A stretch of 54,448 bases of DNA from Lachnospiraceae bacterium (GTDB lineage Bacteria; Bacillota; Clostridia; Lachnospirales; Lachnospiraceae): the NCBI GenBank assembly GCA_017624835.1, contig JAGAMG010000041.1:1-54448 (forward strand), written 5' to 3'. The position numbers and the translations under genes were made by a program. This document shows, in pieces, positions 41,370 through 54,448 of this stretch. The notes beneath the pieces were generated by a model that worked only from the letters and a program-made list of their open reading frames with translations, did no database searches and was not told where the DNA came from. Within the stretch, counting starts at the first letter, position 1; every line of letters begins with the position of its first letter.

Positions 41370-41404
41370 AAAATGATAAGTAAAAAATAATGGGAGGTTT
41401 TAAA

Positions 41405-43207
41405 ATGGCAGAAAACAGATTAGTTGGTGATTATCCCGTAATTGGCATCAGACCTACAATTGATGGACGCAGAGGCGTTTTGAAGGTTCGTGAGTCTTTG
41501 GAAGTGCAGACCATGAATATGGCAAAGTCCGCAGCAAAATTATTTGAAGAAAATTTAAGATATTCCAATGGCGAGCCTGTAAAGGTTGTTATTGCAGATA
41601 CTACTATCGGTCGTGTAGGTGAGGCAGCTGCCTGTGCAGCTAAATTTAAAAAAGAAGGGGTTGATATTACCCTGACTGTAACTCCCTGCTGGTGTTATGG
41701 TGCAGAAACCATGGATATGGATCCTATGACTATTAAGGGGGTTTGGGGCTTTAACGGAACTGAGAGACCCGGTGCTGTTTACCTGGCATCCGTTTTGGCT
41801 ACACATGCACAAAAGGGACTTCCTGCATTTGGTATTTATGGTACTGACGTACAGGATGCAACGGATACTACCATCCCTGAGGATGTAAAAGAAAAATTAT
41901 TAAGATTCGGACGAGCAGCAGTGGCAGCAGCTACCATGAGAGGCAAATCCTACTTACAGATTGGTTCCATTTGTATGGGTATCGGCGGCTCCATTATCAG
42001 TCCTGAATTTATTGAGGAATACTTAGGCATGCGTGTGGAATCCGTTGACGAGGTAGAAATCATCCGTCGTATGACAGAAGGTATCTACGATAAGGCTGAA
42101 TATGAAAAGGCTCTTGCATGGGCAAAAGAAAAATGTATTGAAGGCTTCGACAAGAATCCGGAAGAATTACAGAAGACCCGTGAGCAGAAGGATGGCGATT
42201 GGGAATTCGTAGTGAAGATGATGTGTATTATCAAAGACCTGATGAATGGTAATCAGAATCTTCCTGAAGGCTGTGAAGAGGAAATGGTAGGACATAATGC
42301 TATCGCAGCAGGCTTCCAGGGTCAGAGACAGTGGACGGATTTCTATCCTAACTGTGACTTCCCTGAGGCAATGCTGAATTCCTCCTTCGACTGGAACGGA
42401 GCAAGAGAGCCTTATATTCTTGCTACTGAGAATGACGTATTAAATGGTCTCGGTATGTTATTTATGAAGCTGCTCACCAACCGTCCTCAGATGTTTGCAG
42501 ATGTTCGTACCTATTGGAGTCCGGATGCAGTTAAGAAGGCTACCGGCTATGATGTGGAAGGTAAGGCAAAGGATGCAGGCGGATTTATTCATCTGATTAA
42601 CTCCGGTGCGTGCTGTCTGGATGCAAACGGTGCTGCCAAGGATGCAGAGGGCAATGCAGTAATGAAGCCCTGGTATGAAGTAACCGAAGCGGATCAGGAT
42701 GCTATTATGAAGAATACTACATGGAACTATGCCGACTTGGGATACTTCCGTGGCGGCGGATATTCTTCCAGATTTGAGACCAAGGATGAAATGCCTGTTA
42801 CCATGATTCGTCTGAATCTGGTTAAGAACTTAGGACCCGTTCTTCAGATTGCTGAAGGTTGGACTGTTGGATTGCCTGAGGATGTTTCCGATACTCTTTG
42901 GAAACGTACTGACTATACATGGCCTTGTACCTGGTTTGCTCCCAGAGTAACCGGAGAAGGTGCATTTAAGACTGCTTATGATGTAATGAATAACTGGGGT
43001 GCTAACCACGGTGCTATTTCCTACGGACATATCGGAGCAGATTTGATTACCCTTTGCTCCATCCTCAGAATTCCTGTATGTATGCACAATGTTCCGGAAG
43101 AGAAGATTTTCAGACCTTCCGCTTGGAATGCATTCGGCATGGATAAAGAGGGTCAGGACTACAGAGCTTGTGAAGCATATGGCCCTATGTATAAAACAAT
43201 CAAGTAG
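41405..43207 (+). CDS. fucI: L-fucose isomerase
   Basis: 600 aa from the ATG at 41405 behind GGGAGG (E. coli FucI 591 aa). Converts L-fucose to L-fuculose in the cytoplasm with Mn2+. Clear landmarks: [61 protein letters not shown] (metal-ligand region) and [17 protein letters not shown] near the end (metal-binding His). D-arabinose isomerisation is a family side activity. First gene of the fucose locus, with a LacI-type operator in front and a terminator behind. Confidence 0.96.
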
Positions 43208-43227
43208 TATTTGTATAAAATGAATCA

Positions 43228-43273
43228 AGGCTGAGTGGCTGCCGTGCCGGGAGCACGGCAGTCCGGCTTTTTG
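43228..43273 (+). terminator. Rho-independent terminator after fucI
   Basis: CTGCCGTGC (43239-43247) pairs with GCACGGCAG (43253-43261), extended by AGGCTG/CCGGCTT-type outer pairs, then TTTTT. Confidence 0.85.
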
Positions 43274-43302
43274 AAAAAACGTCAGGATGAATAGGGGATT
43301 TT

Positions 43303-44310
43303 ATGGCGGCAACGATAAGAGATATTAAAGAAAAGACTGGATTATCCCTTGCTACAATTTCCAAATACATCAATGGCGGTCATGTTTTACCTGAAAATAA
43401 AGAAAAAATAGAAGCGGCAATAGAAGAACTTCATTATGAAGTAAATGAAATTGCCAGAGGACTTGTAACCAATAAAACCAAAACCATAGGCATTGTAGTA
43501 TTTCGAATTGAAAGTCTCTTTAACGGAACCTTACTTCATTATATCGGTAATATTCTCCGTGAAAAAGGCTATGGGCTATTAATTTGTGATTCCTGTGATG
43601 ATGAGCAGATAGAAGTCGACAATGTAAAATTCCTGATTGGAAAAAAGGTAGATGGTATTTTAGCCATTCCGGTATCTGATAATTTTTCATTTTTGGAAAG
43701 TGCAAGGCAAAGAAATATTCCGGTGGTACTGATTGACCGTTCCATTAAGGATGCCGCCTGTGACTGTGTTAAGATTGATAATCGAAATGTGGCAAGGCAA
43801 GCTGTGGAATATCTGATTGGAAAGCACCATGAAAAGATTGCAGTGATTTGCTCCGGTAAGGAATATACGGGAATCGAACGTTACAAAGGATTTATGGATG
43901 CCATGAATGCAGCAGGGTATAAGGTTCCGGAAAATTATTATAAACCGGGAATGCATTGTGTGGAGCATGGTTATGAAAGCATGAAAGCATTGTTGGAGCT
44001 GGAAGAAAGACCAACGGCTGTTTTCATGACCAATTATGAAATTACATTGGGAGCAGTTATGGCATTACAGGAATCGAAATACAGTTGCCCCAAAGATATT
44101 TCCGTGTTAGGCTTTGATAATTTGCTGCTGACCCATCTGGTAGAGCCCAGGATGTGCATGGTAGTACAGCCAATGCAGGAATTGGCGGAAAAGGCTGCGG
44201 AAATTATTTTACAAAGAATTGAAGGTAAAGCAGAAGAGAAGCCCATTGAGATTGTATTGAATACCCAAATGGCAGAAGGGGATTCGGTCAGGGATTTATG
44301 GGAAAATTGA
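43303..44310 (+). CDS. LacI family transcriptional repressor of the fucose locus
   Basis: 335 aa. N-terminal HTH (ATIRDIKEKTGLSLATISKYINGGHVLPENKEKI) with hinge helix, then a periplasmic-binding-protein-like sensor domain (TKTIGIVVFRIESLFNGTLLHYI; VDGILAIPVSDN; FMTNYEITLGAVMALQE; ISVLGFDNLLL). It sits between fucI and the ABC importer; two LacI-type operators lie just downstream and a related palindrome precedes fucI. Effector probably fucose or fuculose (inferred). Confidence 0.9.
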   Translation: MAATIRDIKEKTGLSLATISKYINGGHVLPENKEKIEAAIEELHYEVNEIARGLVTNKTKTIGIVVFRIESLFNGTLLHYIGNILREKGYGLLICDSCDDEQIEVDNVKFLIGKKVDGILAIPVSDNFSFLESARQRNIPVVLIDRSIKDAACDCVKIDNRNVARQAVEYLIGKHHEKIAVICSGKEYTGIERYKGFMDAMNAAGYKVPENYYKPGMHCVEHGYESMKALLELEERPTAVFMTNYEITLGAVMALQESKYSCPKDISVLGFDNLLLTHLVEPRMCMVVQPMQELAEKAAEIILQRIEGKAEEKPIEIVLNTQMAEGDSVRDLWEN

Positions 44311-44327
44311 TTTTTTTTTAATTGATG

Positions 44328-44343
44328 AGTGAAACGTTTCACT
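44328..44343. promoter_or_regulatory. LacI-type operator 1
   Basis: AGTGAAACGTTTCACT is a perfect 16-bp palindrome, upstream of the importer promoter. Its centre is 116 bp from the centre of the second operator. Confidence 0.75.
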
Positions 44344-44404
44344 GTAAAAACTATAATTGTGAATATTGTACCATTTTTTTACATGATGTTGCATAGATAA
44401 GTTG

Positions 44405-44433
44405 TTGACGGTGTGAAGTTATTATGGCATAAT
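44405..44433 (+). promoter_or_regulatory. Promoter of the fucose ABC importer operon
   Basis: TTGACG and CATAAT are 17 bases apart. Expected start near 44440, immediately before operator 2. Confidence 0.7.
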
Positions 44434-44443
44434 AAACACATAG

Positions 44444-44459
44444 AGTGAACCGTTTCGTT
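44444..44459. promoter_or_regulatory. LacI-type operator 2
   Basis: AGTGAACCGTTTCGTT shares the left half and centre of operator 1 (13 of 16 bases). It overlaps the start of transcription, where a bound repressor blocks polymerase. Confidence 0.65.
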
Positions 44460-44534
44460 TTAAGGATTTTTAGGGTTATTCGCTAACAATCCAAAGGATG
44501 AGACAATATTAATTTGTAGTTGGGAGGAAGAAAA

Positions 44535-45506
44535 TTGGAAAAGATTAAACAGAATCCACTTGTGAAAAAAGTAGGATTTAACAGAGTTGTATTATGTTGT
44601 GTACTGATACTGATGTATGTGCTGTTTTGTATTGCATCACCCAACTTTGTGGGTTTACCCCGTATCTTAAGCGCATTAAATTATGCATACTTTCTTGGAT
44701 TTTTATCCTTGGGCGTAACCTTTGTTATTGCAACCGGAGGAATTGATTTCTCCATCGGACCGGTAATGTTCTGTTCCGCATTGGTATCCGGTTATTGCCT
44801 GACCTCTTATGGGATGCCTGTTGGAGTAAGCTTAATAATCAGTATTGCCGTAGGCTTACTGTTTGGTATTTTTAACGGCTATTTGGTAGCCTATTGGTCA
44901 GTACCTCCTTTTATTGTATCCATGGCAAGTATGAACATTGCAAAGGGTGTTGCTTCCGTATTTACCAAGACCCAGTCCGTAAGCTGGCCTCAGGGAGCTT
45001 CCGACCAAGGATGGTTTCGAAAACTAGTAAAGATAGGAAATATTCCGGTAGGTCTATTTATCTTCATTGCAGTGGCTATTATCTGTGCAATGATATTAAA
45101 TAAGACCAAGGCAGGACGTTACATATTAAGCTTAGGTAGCAATAAAGAAGCAGTGAGATTATCCGGTGTTGATGTTAAGAAGTGGGAGATGCTGGCATAT
45201 GTCATTTGTGGAATCTTAGTAGGAATAGCAGCAATCTTCTTTGTAGGCGCATATACCACTGTACAGCCCGGATATGGCGACCAGTACAATAATGAAGCAA
45301 TTGCAGGCTGTGTAATGGGAGGAACCTCCATGGCTGGTGGTCTTGCTTCCATCGCAGGAACCGTAATCGGTGTGTTTATCATCGCTCTTTTGCAGGAAGG
45401 TATTCTGGCTCTTGGCTTCACCAAGGATTACCAGTTGATTATCACTGGTATCATCGTAATCGTAGCAGTTTATGCAGACGTAGTTGCAAGACGCAGAAAG
45501 AACTAG
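44535..45506 (+). CDS. Sugar ABC transporter permease, RbsC-like (CUT2)
   Basis: 323 aa from a TTG at 44535 with GGGAGGAAG upstream; the in-frame TTG at 44520 would place the ribosome site inside the gene. Eight or more membrane helices (BPD_transp_2 family), with SLGVTFVIATGGIDFSIGPVMF and LSLGSNKEAVRLSGVDVKKWE, the loop contacting the ATPase. It is a paralogue of the permease at 47064, so the importer channel is probably a heterodimer. Confidence 0.9.
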   Translation: MEKIKQNPLVKKVGFNRVVLCCVLILMYVLFCIASPNFVGLPRILSALNYAYFLGFLSLGVTFVIATGGIDFSIGPVMFCSALVSGYCLTSYGMPVGVSLIISIAVGLLFGIFNGYLVAYWSVPPFIVSMASMNIAKGVASVFTKTQSVSWPQGASDQGWFRKLVKIGNIPVGLFIFIAVAIICAMILNKTKAGRYILSLGSNKEAVRLSGVDVKKWEMLAYVICGILVGIAAIFFVGAYTTVQPGYGDQYNNEAIAGCVMGGTSMAGGLASIAGTVIGVFIIALLQEGILALGFTKDYQLIITGIIVIVAVYADVVARRRKN

Positions 45507-45556
45507 TGAACAGGAGTAAGCAGAGAATATTTTAGTAGAAAGGTGAAGGTAAGACA

Positions 45557-47053
45557 ATGGGCGAAGTAATCTTAACCATGAAAGACATAGATAAATCTTT
45601 CCCGGGCGTACATGCTTTGGATCATGTAAGCTTTGAGGTACAAAAGGGCGAAGTACATGCGCTGATGGGAGAGAACGGAGCAGGAAAATCCACCCTGATG
45701 AAGGTGCTCACAGGTATTTATACCAAGGATTCCGGTTCCATTATATTTGAAGGCAAGGAAGTAGAGTTCCATAATGCAAGAGAGGCTCAGGATGCAGGTG
45801 TGGTAATTGTACACCAGGAGCTGAACATGTTAGGTCATCTGACCGTGGCTCAGAATATATTTATTGGCCGGGAGTTCAAGAAGGGCATCAAGATTGATGA
45901 CAAGAAAATGAACGAAGAGGCAAAGAAGCTTTTTGATAAGCTGAATATTGATATTGATCCTACAGAAACCATGAGTAATCTGACCGTAGGAAAGCAGCAG
46001 ATGTGTGAAATTGCCAAGGCAATCTCACATGATGCCAAGGTAATTGTATTTGATGAGCCCTCTGCAGCGTTGACCGAGGCTGAGATTCAGGAGTTATTTA
46101 AGATTATCAATGACCTTAGAAAGCAGAATTTGGGTATCGTTTATATCTCTCATCGTATGGATGAGATTAAGGTAATCACAGACCGAGTAACTGTAATGCG
46201 TGATGGTACTTATGTAGGAACCTTAATTACCAAGGATTGTACCAAGGATGATATCATCAACATGATGGTAGGTCGTGTAATTTATGAAGACCCTAAGTCC
46301 AAGAGTATGGTGGCACCGGATGCCCCTGTGGTACTAAAGGTAGAGCACCTGAATGCAGGAAAGATGGTACAGGATGTTAGCTTTGAGCTTCGTAAGGGTG
46401 AAATCCTTGGCTTCTCCGGACTGATGGGTGCAGGACGTACCGAGACCGCAAGAGCTATCTTTGGAGCAGACCCGAAACAGAGTGGTAAGATTTATGTAAA
46501 CGGCAAGGAAGTAACCATCAATTCTCCCGAGGATGCAGTAAAATGTGGTATTGGTTATCTGTCTGAGGATCGTAAGCGTTATGGTATCGTAGTACAAAAG
46601 ACGGTTGCTGAGAACTCCACCATGGCATTCCTTGAGAATTTCGTGAAGGGACTCTTTATTGATAAGAAGGCTGAGAAGGATATTGCACAGAAATATGTTG
46701 ACTCTCTTGCAACCAAGACTCCCAGTGTGGATCAGTTGGTAGTAAATCTGTCCGGTGGTAACCAGCAGAAAGTGGTTATTGCCAAGTGGCTGGTAAGAGA
46801 CTGTGATATCTTAATCTTTGATGAACCTACCAGAGGTATTGACGTAGGTGCAAAGAATGAGATTTACAAGCTGATGAACAAGCTGGCAGAGGAAGGAAAA
46901 TCCATTATCATGATTTCCTCAGAAATGACTGAAATATTGCGTATGAGTGACCGTATCGTAGTTATGTGCGAGGGTAAGAAGACCGGTGAAATCGGTATTG
47001 AAGAGGCTAAGCAGGAAACTATTATGAATATGGCAACACGAGAGATTAAGTAA
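45557..47053 (+). CDS. Sugar ABC transporter ATPase, RbsA/MglA type
   Basis: 498 aa with two fused cassettes. N-terminal half: Walker A GENGAGKS (38-45), signature LTVGKQQ, Walker B VIVFDEPSAAL. C-terminal half: degenerate Walker A GLMGAGRTE, signature LSGGNQQ, Walker B ILIFDEPTRGID, as usual for RbsA. Cytoplasmic engine of a CUT2 monosaccharide importer, here probably for L-fucose. Lies between the two permease genes. Confidence 0.94.
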   Translation: MGEVILTMKDIDKSFPGVHALDHVSFEVQKGEVHALMGENGAGKSTLMKVLTGIYTKDSGSIIFEGKEVEFHNAREAQDAGVVIVHQELNMLGHLTVAQNIFIGREFKKGIKIDDKKMNEEAKKLFDKLNIDIDPTETMSNLTVGKQQMCEIAKAISHDAKVIVFDEPSAALTEAEIQELFKIINDLRKQNLGIVYISHRMDEIKVITDRVTVMRDGTYVGTLITKDCTKDDIINMMVGRVIYEDPKSKSMVAPDAPVVLKVEHLNAGKMVQDVSFELRKGEILGFSGLMGAGRTETARAIFGADPKQSGKIYVNGKEVTINSPEDAVKCGIGYLSEDRKRYGIVVQKTVAENSTMAFLENFVKGLFIDKKAEKDIAQKYVDSLATKTPSVDQLVVNLSGGNQQKVVIAKWLVRDCDILIFDEPTRGIDVGAKNEIYKLMNKLAEEGKSIIMISSEMTEILRMSDRIVVMCEGKKTGEIGIEEAKQETIMNMATREIK

Positions 47054-47063
47054 GGAGGAAACC

Positions 47064-48044
47064 ATGAATAAGAAAAATAACGTTTTATCAAAGTTTAATA
47101 ACCAAAAATTCATTGTACTCCTGGTGGTAATTGCACTGTTCATTTTCTTTAGTATAATGAGCCCGAACTTTAGAAAGTACACCACAGTCCTAAGTATTTT
47201 GGATTATTCCTACTATATTATTTTGATGGCAATCGGTGTTACTTTCCCTTTGATTACCGGAGGTGTAGACCTTTCCATCGGTACCGGACTTATTTGCTAT
47301 TCTTTGGCAGGCGGTTATCTGATTGTACATTGTGGTTGGCCGACCTGGGCAGGAATGCTGGTATCCGTATTGTTTGGTGTATTAATCGGACTTTTAAATG
47401 GCTGTCTGGTATCCTTGATGAACCTGCCACCTTTCCTGGCAACGCTGTGTACCTGTATGATAACCAGAGGACTTGGTTCCCTGTGTTCTAAGGGATTTGG
47501 TATTCCTTGGCCTACCGCCGGTACGGAAGGAAGCTGGTTTAGAAATATCTTCAAGATTACAGTGGGTGAGACCAAATATCCTATCGGATTTATCTGGATG
47601 ATTTTGTTGGTAATCGTTATGGGATTTGTTTTGAATCATACCAAGATTGGTCGTTATACAATAGCAATCGGAAGTAATAAGGAAGCAGCAATGCTCTCCG
47701 GTATTAACGTAAAGTTTTATCATACCATGGCATATGTGATTTCCGGTTTCTTTGCAGGACTTGCAGCAATTGCATACTCCGCAGTATTTGCAACTGTACA
47801 GCCCGGTAGTGGTGCAGGCTTTGAGCTGGAAGCAATCGGTGGTGCTATCATCGGTGGTGTATCCGCAAGTGGTGGTGTAGGAAGTATCAGCGGTTCCTTA
47901 ATCGGTGTATTCGTAATCTGTTTGTTAAAGACAGGACTTCCTTACATTGGCTTACAGGCAAACTGGCAGCAGATTATCACAGGTCTTGTACTGATTGGTG
48001 CAGTATTGGTAGATATTCTGAAAAAGAAGAAAGCAGTAAAATAA
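47064..48044 (+). CDS. Sugar ABC transporter permease, RbsC-like (CUT2)
   Basis: 326 aa, multi-pass. IGVTFPLITGGVDLSIGTGLICY and AIGSNKEAAMLSGINVKFYH mirror the permease at 44535. AAGGAGG before the ATG, 10 nt after the ATPase stop. Typical importers of this type use a single permease gene; the two divergent paralogues are notable. Confidence 0.92.
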   Translation: MNKKNNVLSKFNNQKFIVLLVVIALFIFFSIMSPNFRKYTTVLSILDYSYYIILMAIGVTFPLITGGVDLSIGTGLICYSLAGGYLIVHCGWPTWAGMLVSVLFGVLIGLLNGCLVSLMNLPPFLATLCTCMITRGLGSLCSKGFGIPWPTAGTEGSWFRNIFKITVGETKYPIGFIWMILLVIVMGFVLNHTKIGRYTIAIGSNKEAAMLSGINVKFYHTMAYVISGFFAGLAAIAYSAVFATVQPGSGAGFELEAIGGAIIGGVSASGGVGSISGSLIGVFVICLLKTGLPYIGLQANWQQIITGLVLIGAVLVDILKKKKAVK

Positions 48045-48060
48045 AACGAAACAGGTATGT

Positions 48061-48080
48061 AAACCGCAAAGGGACGGTTT
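48061..48080 (+). promoter_or_regulatory. Small hairpin between permease and binding-protein genes
   Basis: AAACCG and CGGTTT enclose an 8-nt loop. With no T-run, it is more likely an mRNA-processing or stability stem that raises the level of the downstream binding-protein message. Confidence 0.4.
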
Positions 48081-48126
48081 CATATAAAGCGCGTTAAGCG
48101 ACAACTTTTCTTAAGGAGGAAAAAAG

Positions 48127-49215
48127 ATGAAAAAGAAGGTATTAGCATTACTTACAAGTGTAGCATTGGTGGCTACTATGTTAACAGCATGTGGTTCTGA
48201 ATCCGCAGGTTCTAAGGGTAGTGGGGACTTAAATTTTGAAATTATCGTTAAGTCTTATCAGTCTTCCTATTGGCAGGCAGCTGTTACCGGTGTTAACCAG
48301 AAGGCTGGAGAGCTTGGTGTAAAGGTTAACTGTACAGGTCCTAACGCTGAGTCTGATATTGCAGATCAGGTTAATATGTTAAACAATGCAATTAATAATA
48401 AACCCGATGGTATCGGTCTTGCAGCTTGTGATCAGGACGCATGTCTTGACTCCCTGCAGACAGCTATGGACGCAGGAATCCCCGTAGTATGTTTCGACTC
48501 CGGTATTCCTAATGCTCCCGCAGGTTCCGTATTATCCACTGTTGCTACTGACAACTATGCAGCAGGCGCAACCGCAGCAGATAATCTTTACGCAGCATTA
48601 AAGGATACCATCGCAAGTGCAACTGCACCTGTTCGTGTTGGTGAAGTTAACCAGGAAGCTACTTCCGAATCCATTACCAGCCGTGGTTTAGGATTTATTG
48701 ATAAGTTTACTGAGCTGGCTAAGGCTGATGGCAAGAGCGTAGCAGTTATTGGTAATGAGTATTTCGTAAACAACTGTAAAGAAGCCGGTTCAGAAGCAGA
48801 TGCAGACATCATCATCGAAGTTGCAGTTCCTGCACAGACCACCGTTGAGCTTTGTGCTACCGCAGCAGCTACTATCCTGAATAAGGACGACACCATTGGT
48901 ATGTTCGGTTCTAACCAGGTTGCAGCAGAAGGTATCTTAAGTGCAAATGAAAACCTTGGCGTTTTGGGAACAACCCCCGGCGAAACCATCTTAGCAGCAG
49001 GCTTTGATGCAGGTTCCGTTATTAAGTCCGCAATTAAGGGCGGTACCATGTATGGTGCAGTTACCCAGTCTCCTTTAGCAATGGGTCAGACAACTGTTGA
49101 AACTCTATATAAGATTGCTAACGGTGAAAAGGTATCCGATATTCCTACTCAGGGTTACTGGTACAATGCAGACAATATGGAAGATGCTTCCATCGCTCCT
49201 AACCTTTACGACTAA
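48127..49215 (+). CDS. Sugar-binding lipoprotein, RbsB-like (periplasmic binding protein 4 group)
   Basis: 362 aa. Signal peptide with lipobox LTAC (C22). Mature domain is a CUT2 monosaccharide-binding fold: NFEIIVKSYQSSYWQAAVTGVNQKAGELGVKVNCTGP, INNKPDGIGLAACDQDACLDSLQTAMDAGIPVVCFDSGIP. Strong AAGGAGG site. Ligand probably L-fucose by context (inferred). Confidence 0.93.
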   Translation: MKKKVLALLTSVALVATMLTACGSESAGSKGSGDLNFEIIVKSYQSSYWQAAVTGVNQKAGELGVKVNCTGPNAESDIADQVNMLNNAINNKPDGIGLAACDQDACLDSLQTAMDAGIPVVCFDSGIPNAPAGSVLSTVATDNYAAGATAADNLYAALKDTIASATAPVRVGEVNQEATSESITSRGLGFIDKFTELAKADGKSVAVIGNEYFVNNCKEAGSEADADIIIEVAVPAQTTVELCATAAATILNKDDTIGMFGSNQVAAEGILSANENLGVLGTTPGETILAAGFDAGSVIKSAIKGGTMYGAVTQSPLAMGQTTVETLYKIANGEKVSDIPTQGYWYNADNMEDASIAPNLYD

Positions 49216-49253
49216 TTATGAAACTGTATAGTATATAGGAACAAATAATAAGA

Positions 49254-49278
49254 GGGACTGGGATAATATCCCGGTCCC
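49254..49278 (+). terminator. Partial terminator before fucU
   Basis: GGGACTGGGA pairs with TCCCGGTCCC (one G-T wobble) around a 5-nt loop, then CCTTTC. The weak T-run suggests partial termination, lowering expression of the downstream enzyme genes. Confidence 0.65.
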
Positions 49279-49310
49279 CTTTCACAGTATGAAAAATGGA
49301 GGATTTAAAA

Positions 49311-49751
49311 ATGTTAAAAGGTATTCCTAAAATTCTTTCCCCTGAATTATTAAAGGTATTGGCTGAAATGGGTCACAGTGACAGACTTGTTATTTCCGAT
49401 GGTAATTTTCCTGCTGAGTCCATGGGAAAAAATGCCATTGTAATCCGTTGTGACGGACATGGTGTGCCTGAACTTTTGGATGCAATTTTACAGGTATTCC
49501 CTCTGGATACTTACGTAGAGAAGCCTGTGAATCTCATGGAGGTTATGCCCGGGGATAATGTGGAGACCCCTATCTGGGATGTTTATAAAGAGATTATCGC
49601 TAAGTATGATGACAGAGGGGCGGATGCAGTAGGAAATATTGAACGTTTTAAATTTTATGACGAAGCAAAGACAGTTTATGCTATAATAGCAACAGGTGAG
49701 TCCGCACTGTATGCAAATGTGATGCTGCAGAAGGGTGTTGTGGTAGAGTAG
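49311..49751 (+). CDS. fucU: L-fucose mutarotase
   Basis: 146 aa from the ATG at 49311 (GGAGG at 49298-49302). Matches the RbsD/FucU family: MLKGIPKILSPELLKVLAEMGHSD with H22 and D24, and the C-terminal GESALYANVMLQKGVV (E. coli has GERAPYGNIILKKGVV). Interconverts fucose anomers so that the isomerase receives its substrate. Its last codons are the beginning of the left arm of a long foldback element. Confidence 0.92.
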   Translation: MLKGIPKILSPELLKVLAEMGHSDRLVISDGNFPAESMGKNAIVIRCDGHGVPELLDAILQVFPLDTYVEKPVNLMEVMPGDNVETPIWDVYKEIIAKYDDRGADAVGNIERFKFYDEAKTVYAIIATGESALYANVMLQKGVVVE

Positions 49752-50097
49752 GTTTGTATTGAAGAAGTGTGCTTTGACACAAAAGGATGCATAGTTTTTG
49801 GTGCCGGGGAGGGGGCAAATATATTTTTGCCTCTCGGAACTGCGGACTTAAGAAACACTATATGTTCTGCGCGAAGGTTGAGGTTGGCAACGCACACGGT
49901 GCAAATGCGCGTCCGTGCGCAGTTGCACCTTAGCGCCCCGTCCGTGGAGCGCTAGTGCTGGGTATTCGAGGCAGAACATAAGAGTTTCTAAAGTCCTCCG
50001 TAACGTTCAGAAAAAATATATTTGCGCCCTCCCCGGAGCGAAGTTTATGTATCCCCTTTTTGTCAAAGAAATAATATTTCAATACAAATTACTCTAC
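49743..50097. repeat. 355-bp foldback element with ~130-bp imperfect arms
   Basis: The two ends are reverse complements: 49743-49763 with 50078-50097, 49773-49793 with 50046-50068, CCGGGGAGGGGGCAAATAT (49804-49822) with 50017-50035, and 49831-49870 with 49971-50010. The ~90-nt centre contains two GC-rich hairpins: GGTGCAA-A-TGCGC with GCGCA-G-TTGCACC (49898-49929), and AGCGC/GCGCT (49932-49953). No ORF of note. A structured RNA or a MITE-like element. Confidence 0.85.
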
Positions 50098-50139
50098 TTA
50101 AAATAATAAATGTATGATGGGACAGCCCGGAGGTTGAGT

Positions 50140-50583
50140 ATGTTAGAGCAAGTGGTTAGTATGTTTGATGATTATGAGAATATGCTGAAGAAACTGAAGA
50201 AGAAATCTTATGAAGAGAGAATGAAGGGATTCAGGGAGAAGTATGGGCATTATTTCACGGAAATGACTGCGTATGTGGAAAATACGGATTCTGATAAGAG
50301 GAATACTGCATGTCTGGAGATTGCAGAGGCTTTTATTGGAGCCGTGCAGGAGAAATTTCAGGTGAATGGTAAAATGAAAGGACGTACCCAGGCGGACTTG
50401 AATTTCTTTATGATTTATTATGTGTTCCCTGCAATTTTGTTGACTGAGCATGAGAGTGCGAAGGAAATTGCAGATGCTATCTGTAATAAGTGGGGAGCAA
50501 GTTTTAAGGATAGTAAGATTGGTTATACAACATACGATAGTCTGTATGGGGCGTTTCGGGAGAAGATATTTGGAATTTTCTAG
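50140..50583 (+). CDS. Small helical protein of unknown function (147 aa)
   Basis: Start at 50140 is preferred because GGAGG is 5 nt upstream; an ATG at 50110 lacks a site. Mostly alpha-helical, charged, no membrane segment or signal. Contains MLKKLKKKSYEERMKGFREKYGHYFTEM and AKEIADAICNKWGASFKDSKIGYTTYDSLYGAFREKIFGIF. Not recognised. It is 11 nt before the kinase gene and so is part of the fucose operon or introduced with the foldback. Confidence 0.7.
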   Translation: MLEQVVSMFDDYENMLKKLKKKSYEERMKGFREKYGHYFTEMTAYVENTDSDKRNTACLEIAEAFIGAVQEKFQVNGKMKGRTQADLNFFMIYYVFPAILLTEHESAKEIADAICNKWGASFKDSKIGYTTYDSLYGAFREKIFGIF

Positions 50584-50594
50584 GAGGAAAGCTT

Positions 50595-51992
50595 ATGGGT
50601 AAGTATTTTCTTGCAATTGATATTGGGGCTTCCAGCGGCAGGCATATCTTAGGCAGTGTGGAAAATGGCAAAATGGTGCTGGAAGAGGTTTATCGTTTTT
50701 GGAACGGTATGGATAATGTGGACGGAACCCTTTGCTGGGATGTGGACAGACTGTTTAGGGAAATCATCGAAGGCATGAAGAAATGTAAGGAACTGGGGAA
50801 AATCCCTGTAAGTGTGGGAATTGATACCTGGGGTGTGGATTTTGTGTTGCTGGATAAGGATGATAAGATTATCGGAAAAACGGTGGGCTACCGTGACCAT
50901 AGAACCGATGGCATGGATGAAGAGGTTTATAAAATTGTAAGCCAGGATGAATTGTATGAAAGAACCGGTATCCAGAAGGCAATATATAATACCATTTATC
51001 AGTTGATGGCAGTAAAATTAAATGCGCCTGAGGATATGGAGAATGCGGCGGCAATGTTGATGATTCCGGATTATTTCCATTATAAGCTTTCCGGCAAGAA
51101 GGTGCAGGAGTATTCAGAGGCAACCACTGCACAGTTAGTAAATCCTGCAACCAAGGATTGGGATTATGAGCTGATTGAAAAATTAGGCTTTAATAAGGAG
51201 ATGTTCCAGAAAATCCTGATGCCGGGAACTAAGATTGGAAATCTGACCCAAGAGGTGCAGGAATTGGTTGGCTATGATTGTAATGTAATTTTGCCTCCTA
51301 CTCATGATACTGCATCTGCCGTGATGGCAGTGCCTACCAATGAGGAGGATACCTGTTACATTAGTTCGGGAACCTGGTCGCTGATGGGAGTGGAGCGTGC
51401 TGATGCGGATTGCTCCAAGGCTAGTGAAATTGCTAACTTTACCAATGAGGGCGGCTACAATGGAAGAATCACTTACCTTGCCAATATCATGGGACTTTGG
51501 ATGATTCAGTCCGTGCGCAATCAGTTGGCACCGGATATGTCCTATGGGGATTTGTGTGAGCAGGCGGCTAAGGAAACCATTTCTACAGTGGTGGATTGTC
51601 AGGATTCTAGTTTCCTGTCACCGGACGATATGGTGGTGGCAGTGAAGGATTACTGCAAGGCGTCCGGGCAGCAGGTACCGGAAACCTTACCTGAATTGGC
51701 ATCTGTAATTTACAACAGTTTGGCAAAGTGCTATGCAGAAAAACTGAAAGAGATTGAGAAGCTGACCGGAAAGAAATATGACAAAATTAATATTATCGGC
51801 GGTGGTTCCAATGCCAAATACTTGAATGAGCTGACTGCAAAGTATACCGGTGTGGAGGTTCATGCAGGTCCCGGGGAAGCGACGGCAATCGGTAATATTC
51901 TTGCCCAGATGATTGAAGAGGGAGTGTTTGCAAATCTTGTGGAAGCAAGACGGTGCGTGGCAGATTCCTTTGAGATTCAGATTTATAAGTAA
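50595..51992 (+). CDS. Rhamnulokinase-family sugar kinase, probable L-fuculokinase
   Basis: 465 aa FGGY kinase. Phosphate loop FLAIDIGASSGRHILG (5-20), SVGIDTWGVDFVLLD, HDTASAVMAVP, ISSGTWSLMG and adenosine motif IIGGGSNAKYLNEL are intact. The sequence is RhaB-like, and no rhamnose isomerase is in the window; next to fucI and fucU it most likely phosphorylates L-fuculose, as reported for RhaB-like kinases in Roseburia fucose loci. Substrate is inferred. AGGAGG before the ATG. Confidence 0.88.
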   Translation: MGKYFLAIDIGASSGRHILGSVENGKMVLEEVYRFWNGMDNVDGTLCWDVDRLFREIIEGMKKCKELGKIPVSVGIDTWGVDFVLLDKDDKIIGKTVGYRDHRTDGMDEEVYKIVSQDELYERTGIQKAIYNTIYQLMAVKLNAPEDMENAAAMLMIPDYFHYKLSGKKVQEYSEATTAQLVNPATKDWDYELIEKLGFNKEMFQKILMPGTKIGNLTQEVQELVGYDCNVILPPTHDTASAVMAVPTNEEDTCYISSGTWSLMGVERADADCSKASEIANFTNEGGYNGRITYLANIMGLWMIQSVRNQLAPDMSYGDLCEQAAKETISTVVDCQDSSFLSPDDMVVAVKDYCKASGQQVPETLPELASVIYNSLAKCYAEKLKEIEKLTGKKYDKINIIGGGSNAKYLNELTAKYTGVEVHAGPGEATAIGNILAQMIEEGVFANLVEARRCVADSFEIQIYK

Positions 51993-52098: not shown

Positions 52099-52785
52099 TT
52101 ATCTATTCAGAATCAGCTTGGTCAATTCAACAGGCTCAACAATCTTGCCGTCTTTGTAAACACGCATGTTTCCGGAAGCGATTTCATCGATAAGGATTAC
52201 TTCGTCGTTGTTGTAACCGAACTCGAATTTGATATCCCAAAGATCAAGACCGATGGACTTCAAATCATCAGAAACAATCTTGGTAATCTTTAAGGTCTGT
52301 TCCTTCATGCTTTCGAACATTGCAGGAGTCATGATGCCTAATGCTGCAAGACCTTCACCGGTAACAAGAGGATCGCCCAGAGCATCATTCTTGAAAGTAC
52401 ACTCTACGTAACCACCTTCTAAAACAGTACCGTCAGCTATGTACTCGCCATATCTGCGGATAAAGCTTCCGGTAGCAACCTGACGGCAGATAACTTCCAA
52501 ACCGTGACCAAATACGGTAGCAGGAAGAACTTCCATGGTAGCATTCTCAACATCAGCACTTACATAGTGAGTCTTGATGCCGGCAGCTTTTAATAATTCA
52601 AAATAGTGAATGGATGTCTCGAGATTTGCTTTGCCGATTCCTTCGATGGTCAGACCTACACTGTTTTCACCGGGATCGAAAACACCGTCTTTGCCGGTAC
52701 AATCATCTTTGAACTTCAGCATTACATTTCCATTGTCGAGGCTGAATACGTCTTTGGTTTTACCTTCATAAATTTTTTTCATCAT
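52099..52785 (-). CDS. purC: Phosphoribosylaminoimidazole-succinocarboxamide synthase
   Basis: 228 aa. Makes SAICAR from CAIR and aspartate with ATP in purine synthesis. Motifs: [13 protein letters not shown] (nucleotide loop), [30 protein letters not shown] and [16 protein letters not shown]. It starts ATGATG, so the first Met may be one codon later. Divergent from guaA, the pair sharing a region with tandem palindromes. Confidence 0.96.
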
Positions 52786-52812: not shown

Positions 52813-52846
52813 TGTTAATAAAATTAACATGTTAATTGGATTAACA
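52813..52846. promoter_or_regulatory. Tandem 17-bp palindromes upstream of purC
   Basis: TGTTAAT-AAA-ATTAACA (52813-52829) is directly followed by TGTTAAT-TGG-ATTAACA (52830-52846). Both have perfect 7-bp arms and a 3-bp centre, 17-bp period. They lie 27 nt before the purC start and ~160 nt before guaA, the place of an operator. The regulator is unknown. Confidence 0.75.
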
Positions 52847-53006
52847 TCATTACTTTAGCACAAAACATTCTCCATGAAAATATTTTTTTTGAAAAATGAA
52901 AAATTTTTTTTCTACTACTTTTCTATCAGAAAAAATTGGTATATAATAGGGATGTCTTTTTTGAGACGACACTGATACATTCTAAATTATCAAAGGAGAA
53001 ATGTTA

Positions 53007-54299
53007 ATGAAACAGGATATGATTGTAATTCTGGACTTAGGAAGTACAGAGAACACAGTGATTGCCAGACAGATTCGTGACATGGGCGTATACAGTGAGA
53101 TTCATCCTCATGATATCACTCCCGATGAACTGAAGGCATTAAATAATGTAAAGGGTATTATTTTAAACGGTGGTGAGAACAGAGTAGTTGACGGAGCCCC
53201 TGTTGATGTAAGTCCTGCAATTTATGAATGCGGATATCCTGTTATATCCATAGATCATCCCACTGCAAAGTGCGAGAAGCAGTATGCAGAGATTCCCGGT
53301 GAGGATGTTATCAAGGCATTCGTTTTTGACGAGTGTAAGGCAGAAGCTAATTGGAATATGAAGAACTTCATTGAGGATCAGGTAGAGCTGGTTCGTCGTC
53401 AGGTTGGTGATAAGAAGGTTCTGCTGGCATTATCCGGTGGTGTGGATTCTTCCGTTGTTGCAGCTCTGTTATTAAAGGCTATCGGTGACCAGTTGACCTG
53501 CGTACATGTTAACCATGGTCTGATGCGTAAGAATGAGTCTGAGAACGTAGTGGAGGTATTTAAGAATCAGTTAAATGCTAACCTTGTATATGTAGATGCT
53601 ACCGACAGATTCCTGGACAAGCTTGCAGGTGTAGCAGACCCTGAGCAGAAGAGAAAGATTATCGGCGGTGAATTTATCCGCGTATTTGAAGAAGAAGCAA
53701 GAAAGCTGGAGGGTATTGATTTCCTGGGACAGGGTACCATTTATCCTGATATCATCGAATCCGGTACCAAGACCGCTAAATGCGTAAAGTCCCACCACAA
53801 TGTAGGCGGACTTCCTGAGGATTTACAGTTTGAATTGGTAGAGCCCCTTGCACAGCTTTTCAAGGACGAAGTACGTGCCTGTGGTGTAGAGCTTGGTTTA
53901 CCTGCTGAGATGGTATACCGTCAGCCCTTCCCCGGTCCCGGACTTGGTGTTCGTTGCCTGGGTGCCATTACCAGAGAACGTCTTGCAGCATTGAGAGAGT
54001 CCGATGCAATCCTGCGCGAAGAGTTTGCGAAGGCAGGTCTTGACAAAAAGGTATGGCAGTACTTCACCGTAATCCCTGATTTCAAGGCAGTAGGTGTAAG
54101 AGACAACGCCAGAAGCATGGGCTATATGGTAGTAATCCGTGCCGTAAACACCGTTGATGCAATGACTGCTACTATTGAAAGAATTGACTATGATATTTTG
54201 GAAAGAATCGTAGACAGAATTACCGCCGAGGTTCCCAGCGTGAACAGAGTTTGCTATGAACTTACAAAAAAACCTGTTGCAACGATAGAGTTTGAGTAA
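53007..54299 (+). CDS. guaA: GMP synthase with shortened, probably inactive glutaminase domain
   Basis: 430 aa from the ATG at 53007, 8 nt past AAAGGAG; an ATG at 53001 is too close to that site. Usual GuaA is ~510-525 aa. The C-terminal part is intact: ATP-pyrophosphatase LALSGGVDSSVVAALL (141-156), dimerisation motif PFPGPGLGVRCLGA and end TKKPVATIEFE. The N-terminal glutamine amidotransferase part is cut: ILNGGENRVVDGAP and GYPVISIDHPTAKCEKQ align with the region that should read GICYG, so the catalytic Cys is replaced (D83), and ~85 residues with the catalytic His and Glu are missing. It would need free ammonia or another subunit. TATAAT at 52942-52947 is a likely -10. Confidence 0.93.
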   Translation: MKQDMIVILDLGSTENTVIARQIRDMGVYSEIHPHDITPDELKALNNVKGIILNGGENRVVDGAPVDVSPAIYECGYPVISIDHPTAKCEKQYAEIPGEDVIKAFVFDECKAEANWNMKNFIEDQVELVRRQVGDKKVLLALSGGVDSSVVAALLLKAIGDQLTCVHVNHGLMRKNESENVVEVFKNQLNANLVYVDATDRFLDKLAGVADPEQKRKIIGGEFIRVFEEEARKLEGIDFLGQGTIYPDIIESGTKTAKCVKSHHNVGGLPEDLQFELVEPLAQLFKDEVRACGVELGLPAEMVYRQPFPGPGLGVRCLGAITRERLAALRESDAILREEFAKAGLDKKVWQYFTVIPDFKAVGVRDNARSMGYMVVIRAVNTVDAMTATIERIDYDILERIVDRITAEVPSVNRVCYELTKKPVATIEFE

Positions 54300-54385
54300 G
54301 CTACGAGTGTACAAAGGCACACCCAATTATCCCCAAAGGGCAAGAATTGGCAGCCTGAGAAGAGAATATCGAGATAAGCAAGAAT

Positions 54386-54428
54386 AGACCTTGTGTAGAG
54401 GAAAAGTCCTCTGCATGGGGTCTTTTTA
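54386..54428 (+). terminator. Rho-independent terminator downstream of guaA
   Basis: AGACC with GGTCT and an inner AGAGGA/TCCTCT stem, followed by TTTTT. Confidence 0.8.
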
Positions 54429-54448
54429 AATGCAAGAGACCTTGAAAA

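Follow-up and report, generated by a model that had tools for sequence, protein, structure and literature searches.

A GMP synthase without a working glutaminase domain, most likely ammonia-dependent, in Clostridia and in records of Bacteroidota

GMP synthase (GuaA) is presented in reviews as a two-domain enzyme in bacteria (PMC9312489, PMC10526850), and in a 2012 survey of 730 genomes GuaA is listed as 100% fused to its glutaminase, with none without it (PMC3376133, Table 1). In the GMP synthases (GMPSs) covered by PMC10526850, helix α1 of the glutaminase (GATase) domain packs on two synthetase helices, α11 with the motif DXXES and α12 with the motif KD(D/E)V(K/R); these helices bear the catalytic lid or lie next to it. 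According to the same review, the ATP pyrophosphatase (ATPPase) module of every GMPS studied does not need the GATase for its own activity and accepts external ammonia; the Km values that it gives for NH4Cl vary and can be as high as 174 mM (human enzyme). Free ammonia in cells is described as usually low (PMC3376133).

The short GuaA described here differs from each of its closest known counterparts. Compared to glutamine-hydrolysing GuaA (NF000848; E. coli 1gpm/9kpv), it is without the elbow Cys, the His/Glu block and about 85 residues. Unlike subunit B of the archaeal two-subunit GMPS (6jp9, 2dpl), its 430-aa form keeps a GATase remnant, and no separate subunit A was found. It resembles short NadE, a type N amidoligase which, in the account of PMC3376133, is an N-type ATPPase without the glutaminase of its long relatives and uses ammonia. 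However, NadE acts on another substrate, its long relatives carry a nitrilase-like glutaminase, and its short form consists of the core synthetase only. PurF' of Crenarchaeota is likewise described as a purine amidotransferase relative without the glutaminase nucleophile and proposed to be ammonia-dependent (PMC3261824), but there the nucleophile is absent while the domain is not cut, the enzyme is a different one and its function is a proposal only. No description of a GATase-less bacterial GuaA was found in the literature searched by title and abstract opening, which is no proof of its being unpublished.

Architecture of the short GuaA

The window, i.e., the whole stretch of 54,448 nucleotides that was analyzed, is contig 35 of the assembly of a gut Lachnospiraceae bacterium, with an estimated completeness of 84.81%. 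The GATase-less guaA (mini-GuaA, 430 aa) was delimited by its open reading frame and by profile searches at 53007..54299 on the forward strand, on which all features of the protein named below are located as well. Its conserved start is the ATG at 53007; an alternative in-frame ATG is present two codons upstream, at 53001. The protein gives a full match to the guaA_Cterm profile (459.2 bits, cut-off 338.75), which also matches 50/50 aligned short-GuaA members at E 1e-5, and residues 338-430 (54018..54296) form the GMP_synt_C dimerisation domain (121.9 bits, cut-off 27). The sequence-only reading of this DNA was thus right to take the ATPPase and C-terminal parts as intact. The P-loop SGGVDSS (residues 143-149; 53433..53453) is invariant in all 50 aligned members. 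Alignment further identified DIIES, the DXXES motif of helix α11 (residues 248-252; 53748..53762), the catalytic lid loop VKSHHN (residues 260-265; 53784..53801) and KDEVR, the motif of helix α12 (residues 286-290; 53862..53876), all three being motifs named in PMC10526850. With the P-loop, a lid of the form (I/V)K(S/T/A)HHN, DXXES, KDEVR and the dimerisation domain all present, the short GuaA belongs, as judged from its synthetase sequence, to the GMP synthetase family.

Among 37 aligned rows of the Lachnospiraceae type, the P-loop, KDEVR, PFPGPGLG and DI(I/V)ES are kept in all and the lid VKSHHN in 36, the remaining one reading VKAHHN. The C-terminal motifs PFPGPGLG and KPxxTIE[FW]E are retained in the short forms. 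Group-specific changes of the Lachnospiraceae type are HVNHGL for FVDHGL and a SVGVRDNAR-type loop. Among the 16 distant short rows, KNEVR replaces KDEVR in two and the P-loop is altered in several. The D/E of KDEVR is kept even in 21/21 stand-alone synthetase rows without any GATase. An AF2 model of the whole 430-aa protein has pLDDT values below 50 at residues 242-269 (the lid), 306-317, 382-389 and 422-430.

The glutaminase part is cut in half. The short GuaA covers only positions 1-76 of the 188 of the guaA_Nterm profile (49.5 bits, cut-off 172.15). It retains the first half of the GATase domain (four strands and the associated helices) as well as the final helix, which leads into the linker. 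After strand 4 it reads ISIDHPTAKC and then rejoins at that final helix; alignment with the full-length GuaA of its own genome shows the loss of three elements, namely the nucleophile-bearing GICYG elbow, the strands in the centre of the domain and the HPE block. The earlier claims that the domain is some 85 residues short, that ISIDHP stands where GICYG is expected, and that the nucleophile Cys and the His/Glu block are gone are all borne out by these alignments, and the protein is without the Cys-His-Glu triad of the two-domain glutamine-hydrolysing enzyme. The DHP of ISIDHPTAKC may be a vestige of FHPEV. The sequence-only reading had named a catalytic Cys and His elsewhere in the protein as an outcome that would speak against it. 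In a 50-member alignment of short forms C89 is conserved in 98% and C110 in 100%, but no relocated triad was seen, since the position of C110 is a Cys in full-length enzymes too and C89 is missing from some members (L118, L190).

The remnant (residues 1-113; 53007..53345), made up of the first half-domain and the last helix, is predicted to fold as one compact α/β domain, and in the model of the 430-aa form it sits on the GATase docking face. Its helix 1 (residues 16-25; 53052..53081) is, by alignment and model, the counterpart of GATase α1. In this helix R21 and R24 are invariant, whereas the second basic residue of the (K/R)(K/R)XRE motif is a Q. The first Arg of α1 is present in 37/37 Lachnospiraceae-type short rows and is Arg or Lys in 16/16 distant short rows; the last Arg occurs in 53/53 short rows. 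The second basic residue, found in 26/26 full-length rows, is kept in only 2/37 Lachnospiraceae-type and 10/16 distant short rows. Judged from these alignments, the cross-talk helix α1 has drifted in the short forms of the Lachnospiraceae type.

A pattern scan of the genome collection returned at least 594 matches, at least 589 of which encode a relative. The best 80 loci (79-94% identity to the window's gene, mostly Lachnospiraceae by title) include named isolates, e.g., Blautia caecimuris DSM 29492 and [Ruminococcus] torques ATCC 27756. Exactly 430 stop-free codons are found in the window and in 75 of these 80 loci, the other five either lacking one codon or running into a contig end. Median dN/dS values, calculated from 74-150 of 2850 pairs with a dS of 0.1-1.2 (the others being saturated or too close), are 0.054 for the synthetase, 0.072 for the dimerisation domain, 0.127 for residues 1-81 of the remnant and 0.334 for residues 82-113. 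The deletion junction proper (residues 82-97; 53250..53297) is the least conserved stretch of the protein. Given the ratio of 0.127 in the remnant compared to 0.334 at the junction, the remnant is maintained, and the scar drifts most. A deletion error in the reads is excluded by the shared stop-free frame, and the proposal of an evolved reduction with a clean frame holds: it is a conserved form subject to purifying selection and is found in many genera and several families.

Distribution and descent

Among 397 genomes of the family, 57 contain the 430-aa form (cut by a contig end in one), 54 have a synthetase-only match and one (G254) has a further short form. The synthetase-only matches start at query residue 113-121 and run to residue 430, with open frames mostly of 326-370 aa. 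Inspection of 20 loci revealed in most of them (L120-L128, L130, L139-L142, L144, L146, L150-L153) a synthetase-only GMPS of about 326-337 aa with no GATase remnant. A GuaA match besides the GATase-less form is absent in 11 of the 57 and in 9 of the 54 genomes. By match counts, a further GuaA match is present in 46 of the 57, and in G064 this is a second short copy. A second survey, of 398 genomes of the phylum, identified the same type in at least eight genomes outside the family (G719, G771, G565, G763, G697, G679, G761, G708), together with at least one synthetase-only form near the Lachnospiraceae type (G639), at least one other synthetase-only form (G577) and at least 15 short forms that are more distant (about 407-438 aa). 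In both surveys at most four GuaA candidates were scored per genome, and the genomes are partly MAGs.

The guaA_Nterm profile, which is over cut-off in 14/14 control genomes (M. jannaschii included), was used to search for glutaminases of the GMPS type. It is over cut-off in one of 21 genomes (20 single-copy genomes of the family and the window's own), namely the window's own, and in 4 of 20 phylum genomes with a GATase-less GuaA, 16 staying below. In 36 genomes altogether, the GATase-less GuaA is the sole GuaA match and no glutaminase of the GMPS type reaches the cut-off. As the absence of a glutaminase or of a second GuaA leans on estimates of genome completeness, it is relevant that 27 of these 36 are of high quality (at least 90% complete, at most 5% contaminated). 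A guaB-like gene, searched for in 29 of the 36 and in the window's own genome, has a match in 27/27 high-quality sole-copy genomes, over cut-off in 24 and below it in three (G326, G368 and, with a partial match, G109); the lower-quality genome G767 has none. Since all high-quality sole-copy genomes have such a gene, XMP should be made there and need aminating. These related bacteria seem to rely on a GATase-less GMP synthase alone, and genomes with such a GuaA contradict the 100% fusion stated in Table 1 of PMC3376133.

In the window's own genome the short guaA is an extra copy, because a full-length GuaA is encoded on contig 23 (guaA_Nterm 257.9 bits, over cut-off). A second full guaA had been put forward in the sequence-only reading as one of three possible implications. 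It does exist, but it does not compete with ammonia dependence, as the 36 sole-copy genomes combine a GATase-less GuaA with the absence of any over-cut-off glutaminase of the GMPS type.

The number of times that the glutaminase was lost was addressed with a quick tree and with a careful tree of the synthetase part (100 rows). In the careful tree, G254 groups with seven full-length enzymes of Lachnospiraceae (100/99) and G713 with a full-length enzyme of its own family (100/94). A single clade for all 74 GATase-less rows is rejected by the AU test (p 2.2e-8). With G254 removed it is no longer rejected (p 0.44 in the quick tree, p 0.21 in the careful tree), and with both G254 and G713 removed the tree constrained to one clade scores even better. 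The quick tree had suggested about four independent origins, of which the AU tests leave only that of G254 firm. By these trees at least two losses, perhaps three, ended in the same half-domain, and one large class may be single. The separately derived short guaA of G254 (L129, 5786-7015) shares 84% identity in its synthetase part with a full-length Lachnospiraceae enzyme and is possibly an early stage of the same reduction.

The short gene has likely also been transferred between phyla. Named records of Parabacteroides distasonis and Bacteroides finegoldii contain short genes 78% identical to that of the window, and the phylogenetic placement speaks for transfer, because the Bacteroidota short genes fall inside the Clostridia short clade (SH-aLRT 85 for the 5-row group, 96 for the 39-row group) and the full-length GuaA of P. 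distasonis, on a long branch, falls among the full-length rows. In P. distasonis the short gene follows the native guaA after 51 nt, and similar full-then-short pairs occur in L079, L111, L190 and L214. Both records are labelled plasmids yet carry chromosome-like genes, so that the label is doubtful. Plasmid records in general gave 276 matches at E 1e-60, and of the 10 listed only three cover residues 1-430. Phage records gave 16 matches; the 10 listed cover only residues 84/96/98-430.

Ammonia dependence and alternative readings

Being a synthetase without a functional glutaminase domain, the short GuaA has the make-up of a type N amidoligase, and by analogy it most likely works like an ammonia-dependent one. 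The most probable product of the short guaA is a GMP synthetase that uses free ammonia for the amination of XMP. Its strongest support comes from the 36 genomes in which a GATase-less GuaA stands alone. The intact ATPPase and dimerisation domain would activate XMP as adenyl-XMP, and ammonia would enter from solution rather than through an intramolecular channel, the GATase active site being deleted. The 113-residue remnant, in which the strands and helix α1 docking on α11 and α12 are retained, most likely acts as a fixed scaffold or static dock beside the catalytic lid loop, steadying the lid. The advantage could be the sparing of one glutamine where ammonium is plentiful. We infer ammonia as the donor, GMP as the product, the scaffold role and the glutamine-sparing advantage from the features described above. 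Given the high Km values and the low cellular ammonia, use of ammonia in vivo needs either an improved Km or an ammonium-rich habitat. The remnant is not indispensable in all lineages, since synthetase-only forms exist. The retention of cross-talk residues in the GATase-free forms (the D/E of KDEVR) might mean that these still have a docking partner. A bolder extension, to which we give a low probability, concerns a class of GMP synthetases in Clostridia and gut Bacteroidota that would have switched their nitrogen donor from glutamine to free ammonium. In these the glutaminase domain would have collapsed, more than once, to one and the same stable half-domain of CheY-like topology, reused as a new control module on the α11/α12 lid that couples the supply of GMP (GTP, ppGpp) to ammonium or another ligand.

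Other readings of the short protein have to be weighed against ammonia dependence. The synthetase might borrow a class-I GATase in trans (TrpG/PabA, HisH, CarA or PurQ-like), in the manner of the archaeal two-subunit GMPS, and the kept α12 cross-talk motif would fit such a partner. Some guaA_Nterm match, at the thresholds used, is present in 19/21 and 20/20 of the genomes searched; in most genomes these are below cut-off, some being the GuaA remnant itself and others separate frames that may be other GATases. Against this, no stand-alone glutaminase of the GMPS type over cut-off was found by the guaA_Nterm search in the window's genome or in the 36 sole-copy genomes, so that the separate archaeal-type subunit envisaged in the sequence-only reading finds no counterpart there, and two sole-copy genomes of 98% completeness (G109 and G326) lack any guaA_Nterm match at E 0.001. 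Moreover, none of the seven gene clusters common to at least six of the 121 stretches compared around short guaA genes (some of which repeat a contig, the distant short forms being left out) is a recognisable GATase, one of them (c5) being without Pfam match, and in the 430-aa form the modelled remnant itself fills the docking face. A borrowed GATase is therefore considered unlikely. The idea that, where both genes are present, the short protein pairs with full-length GuaA or regulates it, e.g., in a mixed dimer via the dimerisation domain, draws on loci in which a full-length guaA lies directly upstream on the same strand with gaps of about 50-150 nt (L079, L111, L190, L213, L214) or about 2-7 kb upstream (L091, L113, L212). 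It is very improbable: such linkage occurs in only four of the 80 best loci within the flank examined, the 36 genomes have the GATase-less form without a full-length partner, and the synthetase motifs look like those of an active enzyme.

A shift of the synthetase to an acceptor other than XMP might be read from the long branch (0.5 changes per column in the quick tree) that parts the Lachnospiraceae-type short forms from the full-length enzymes, and from the group-specific changes in the HVNHGL and SVGVRDNAR-type segments. However, the short forms retain catalytic as well as C-terminal motifs (PFPGPGLG, KPxxTIE[FW]E), and the GATase-less form is the sole GMPS candidate in the 36 genomes, with a guaB-like gene in 27/27 of high quality (among the 29 searched for it), which makes such a shift very improbable. 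Finally, the full-length copy in the same genome and the contig end 149 nt from the gene might raise suspicion of a decaying pseudogene or an assembly error. This is ruled out for practical purposes by the 430 open codons shared by the window and 75/80 loci, the dN/dS far below 1 and the occurrence in named isolates.

If GMP is indeed made from ammonia by the short GuaA, the two-domain rule is broken for an enzyme of a central pathway, and the enzyme should be insensitive to glutamine analogues that act through the GATase. Records called "glutamine-hydrolyzing GMP synthase" would then be misnamed: the NF000848 model ("glutamine-hydrolyzing") passes the short GuaA at 555.6 bits (cut-off 400) and matches 50/50 aligned members, and the short copy of Parabacteroides carries this annotation. 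The short forms, including those without the helix, would also be natural experiments on the GATase docking helix without catalysis.

Surroundings of the gene

A purC-like gene (SAICAR synthetase; 52099..52785, reverse strand) is the divergent neighbour of the short guaA. This purine gene belongs to a cluster found in 12 of the 121 stretches and lies beside the short guaA only in nearer relatives. Inspection of the sequence and reading frames between both genes revealed no missing gene piece, and Rfam at gathering thresholds gave no riboswitch at the short guaA in the window and 11 further loci. The intergenic stretch contains two tandem palindromes, GTTAATNNNATTAAC, at 52814-52845 (0.29 expected; two reached in 4/100 shuffles). 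They are operator-like in appearance; upstream of the gene in 80 related loci 0 sites were found. In five of seven sole-copy loci (G522, G497, G785, G403, G649) a profile-confirmed hypoxanthine phosphoribosyltransferase gene is located directly upstream. The other two have groEL upstream, as judged by eye (G498), or end with the contig (G713).

Downstream, tyrosine-recombinase genes of one cluster, one member of which was profile-checked, occur in 18/121 stretches, two of them beside synthetase-only forms. The sequence ends within 400 nt downstream of the short guaA in 19/80 loci, compared to 0/80 upstream, and the window's contig ends 149 nt past the stop codon (54300-54448). The 3' end of the gene has the look of a hot spot for insertions. 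A search for copies of this end that could serve as attachment sites gave one chance-like 14-nt match in 60 loci, and the idea was dropped.

Two further observations concern neighbouring genes. A gene of the F420-0:gamma-glutamyl ligase family (PF01996, 191.8 bits for the L040 member) is present in 15/121 stretches. In L048, L058, L060, L061, L096, L115, L117 and L119 it immediately precedes the short guaA in the same orientation, at about 70 nt or less; loci with this gene just upstream include those of the sole-copy genomes G096 and G087. In the window itself, a fucose-type catabolism cluster (41390-51992) encodes an L-fucose isomerase, a LacI regulator, an ABC sugar transporter, an RbsD/FucU-like protein and an FGGY kinase. 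It contains a TwoAYGGAY RNA (Rfam RF01731; 49837-50003, reverse strand; 107 bits, cut-off 43), located between the RbsD/FucU-like gene and an open reading frame without Pfam match at 50110-50583.
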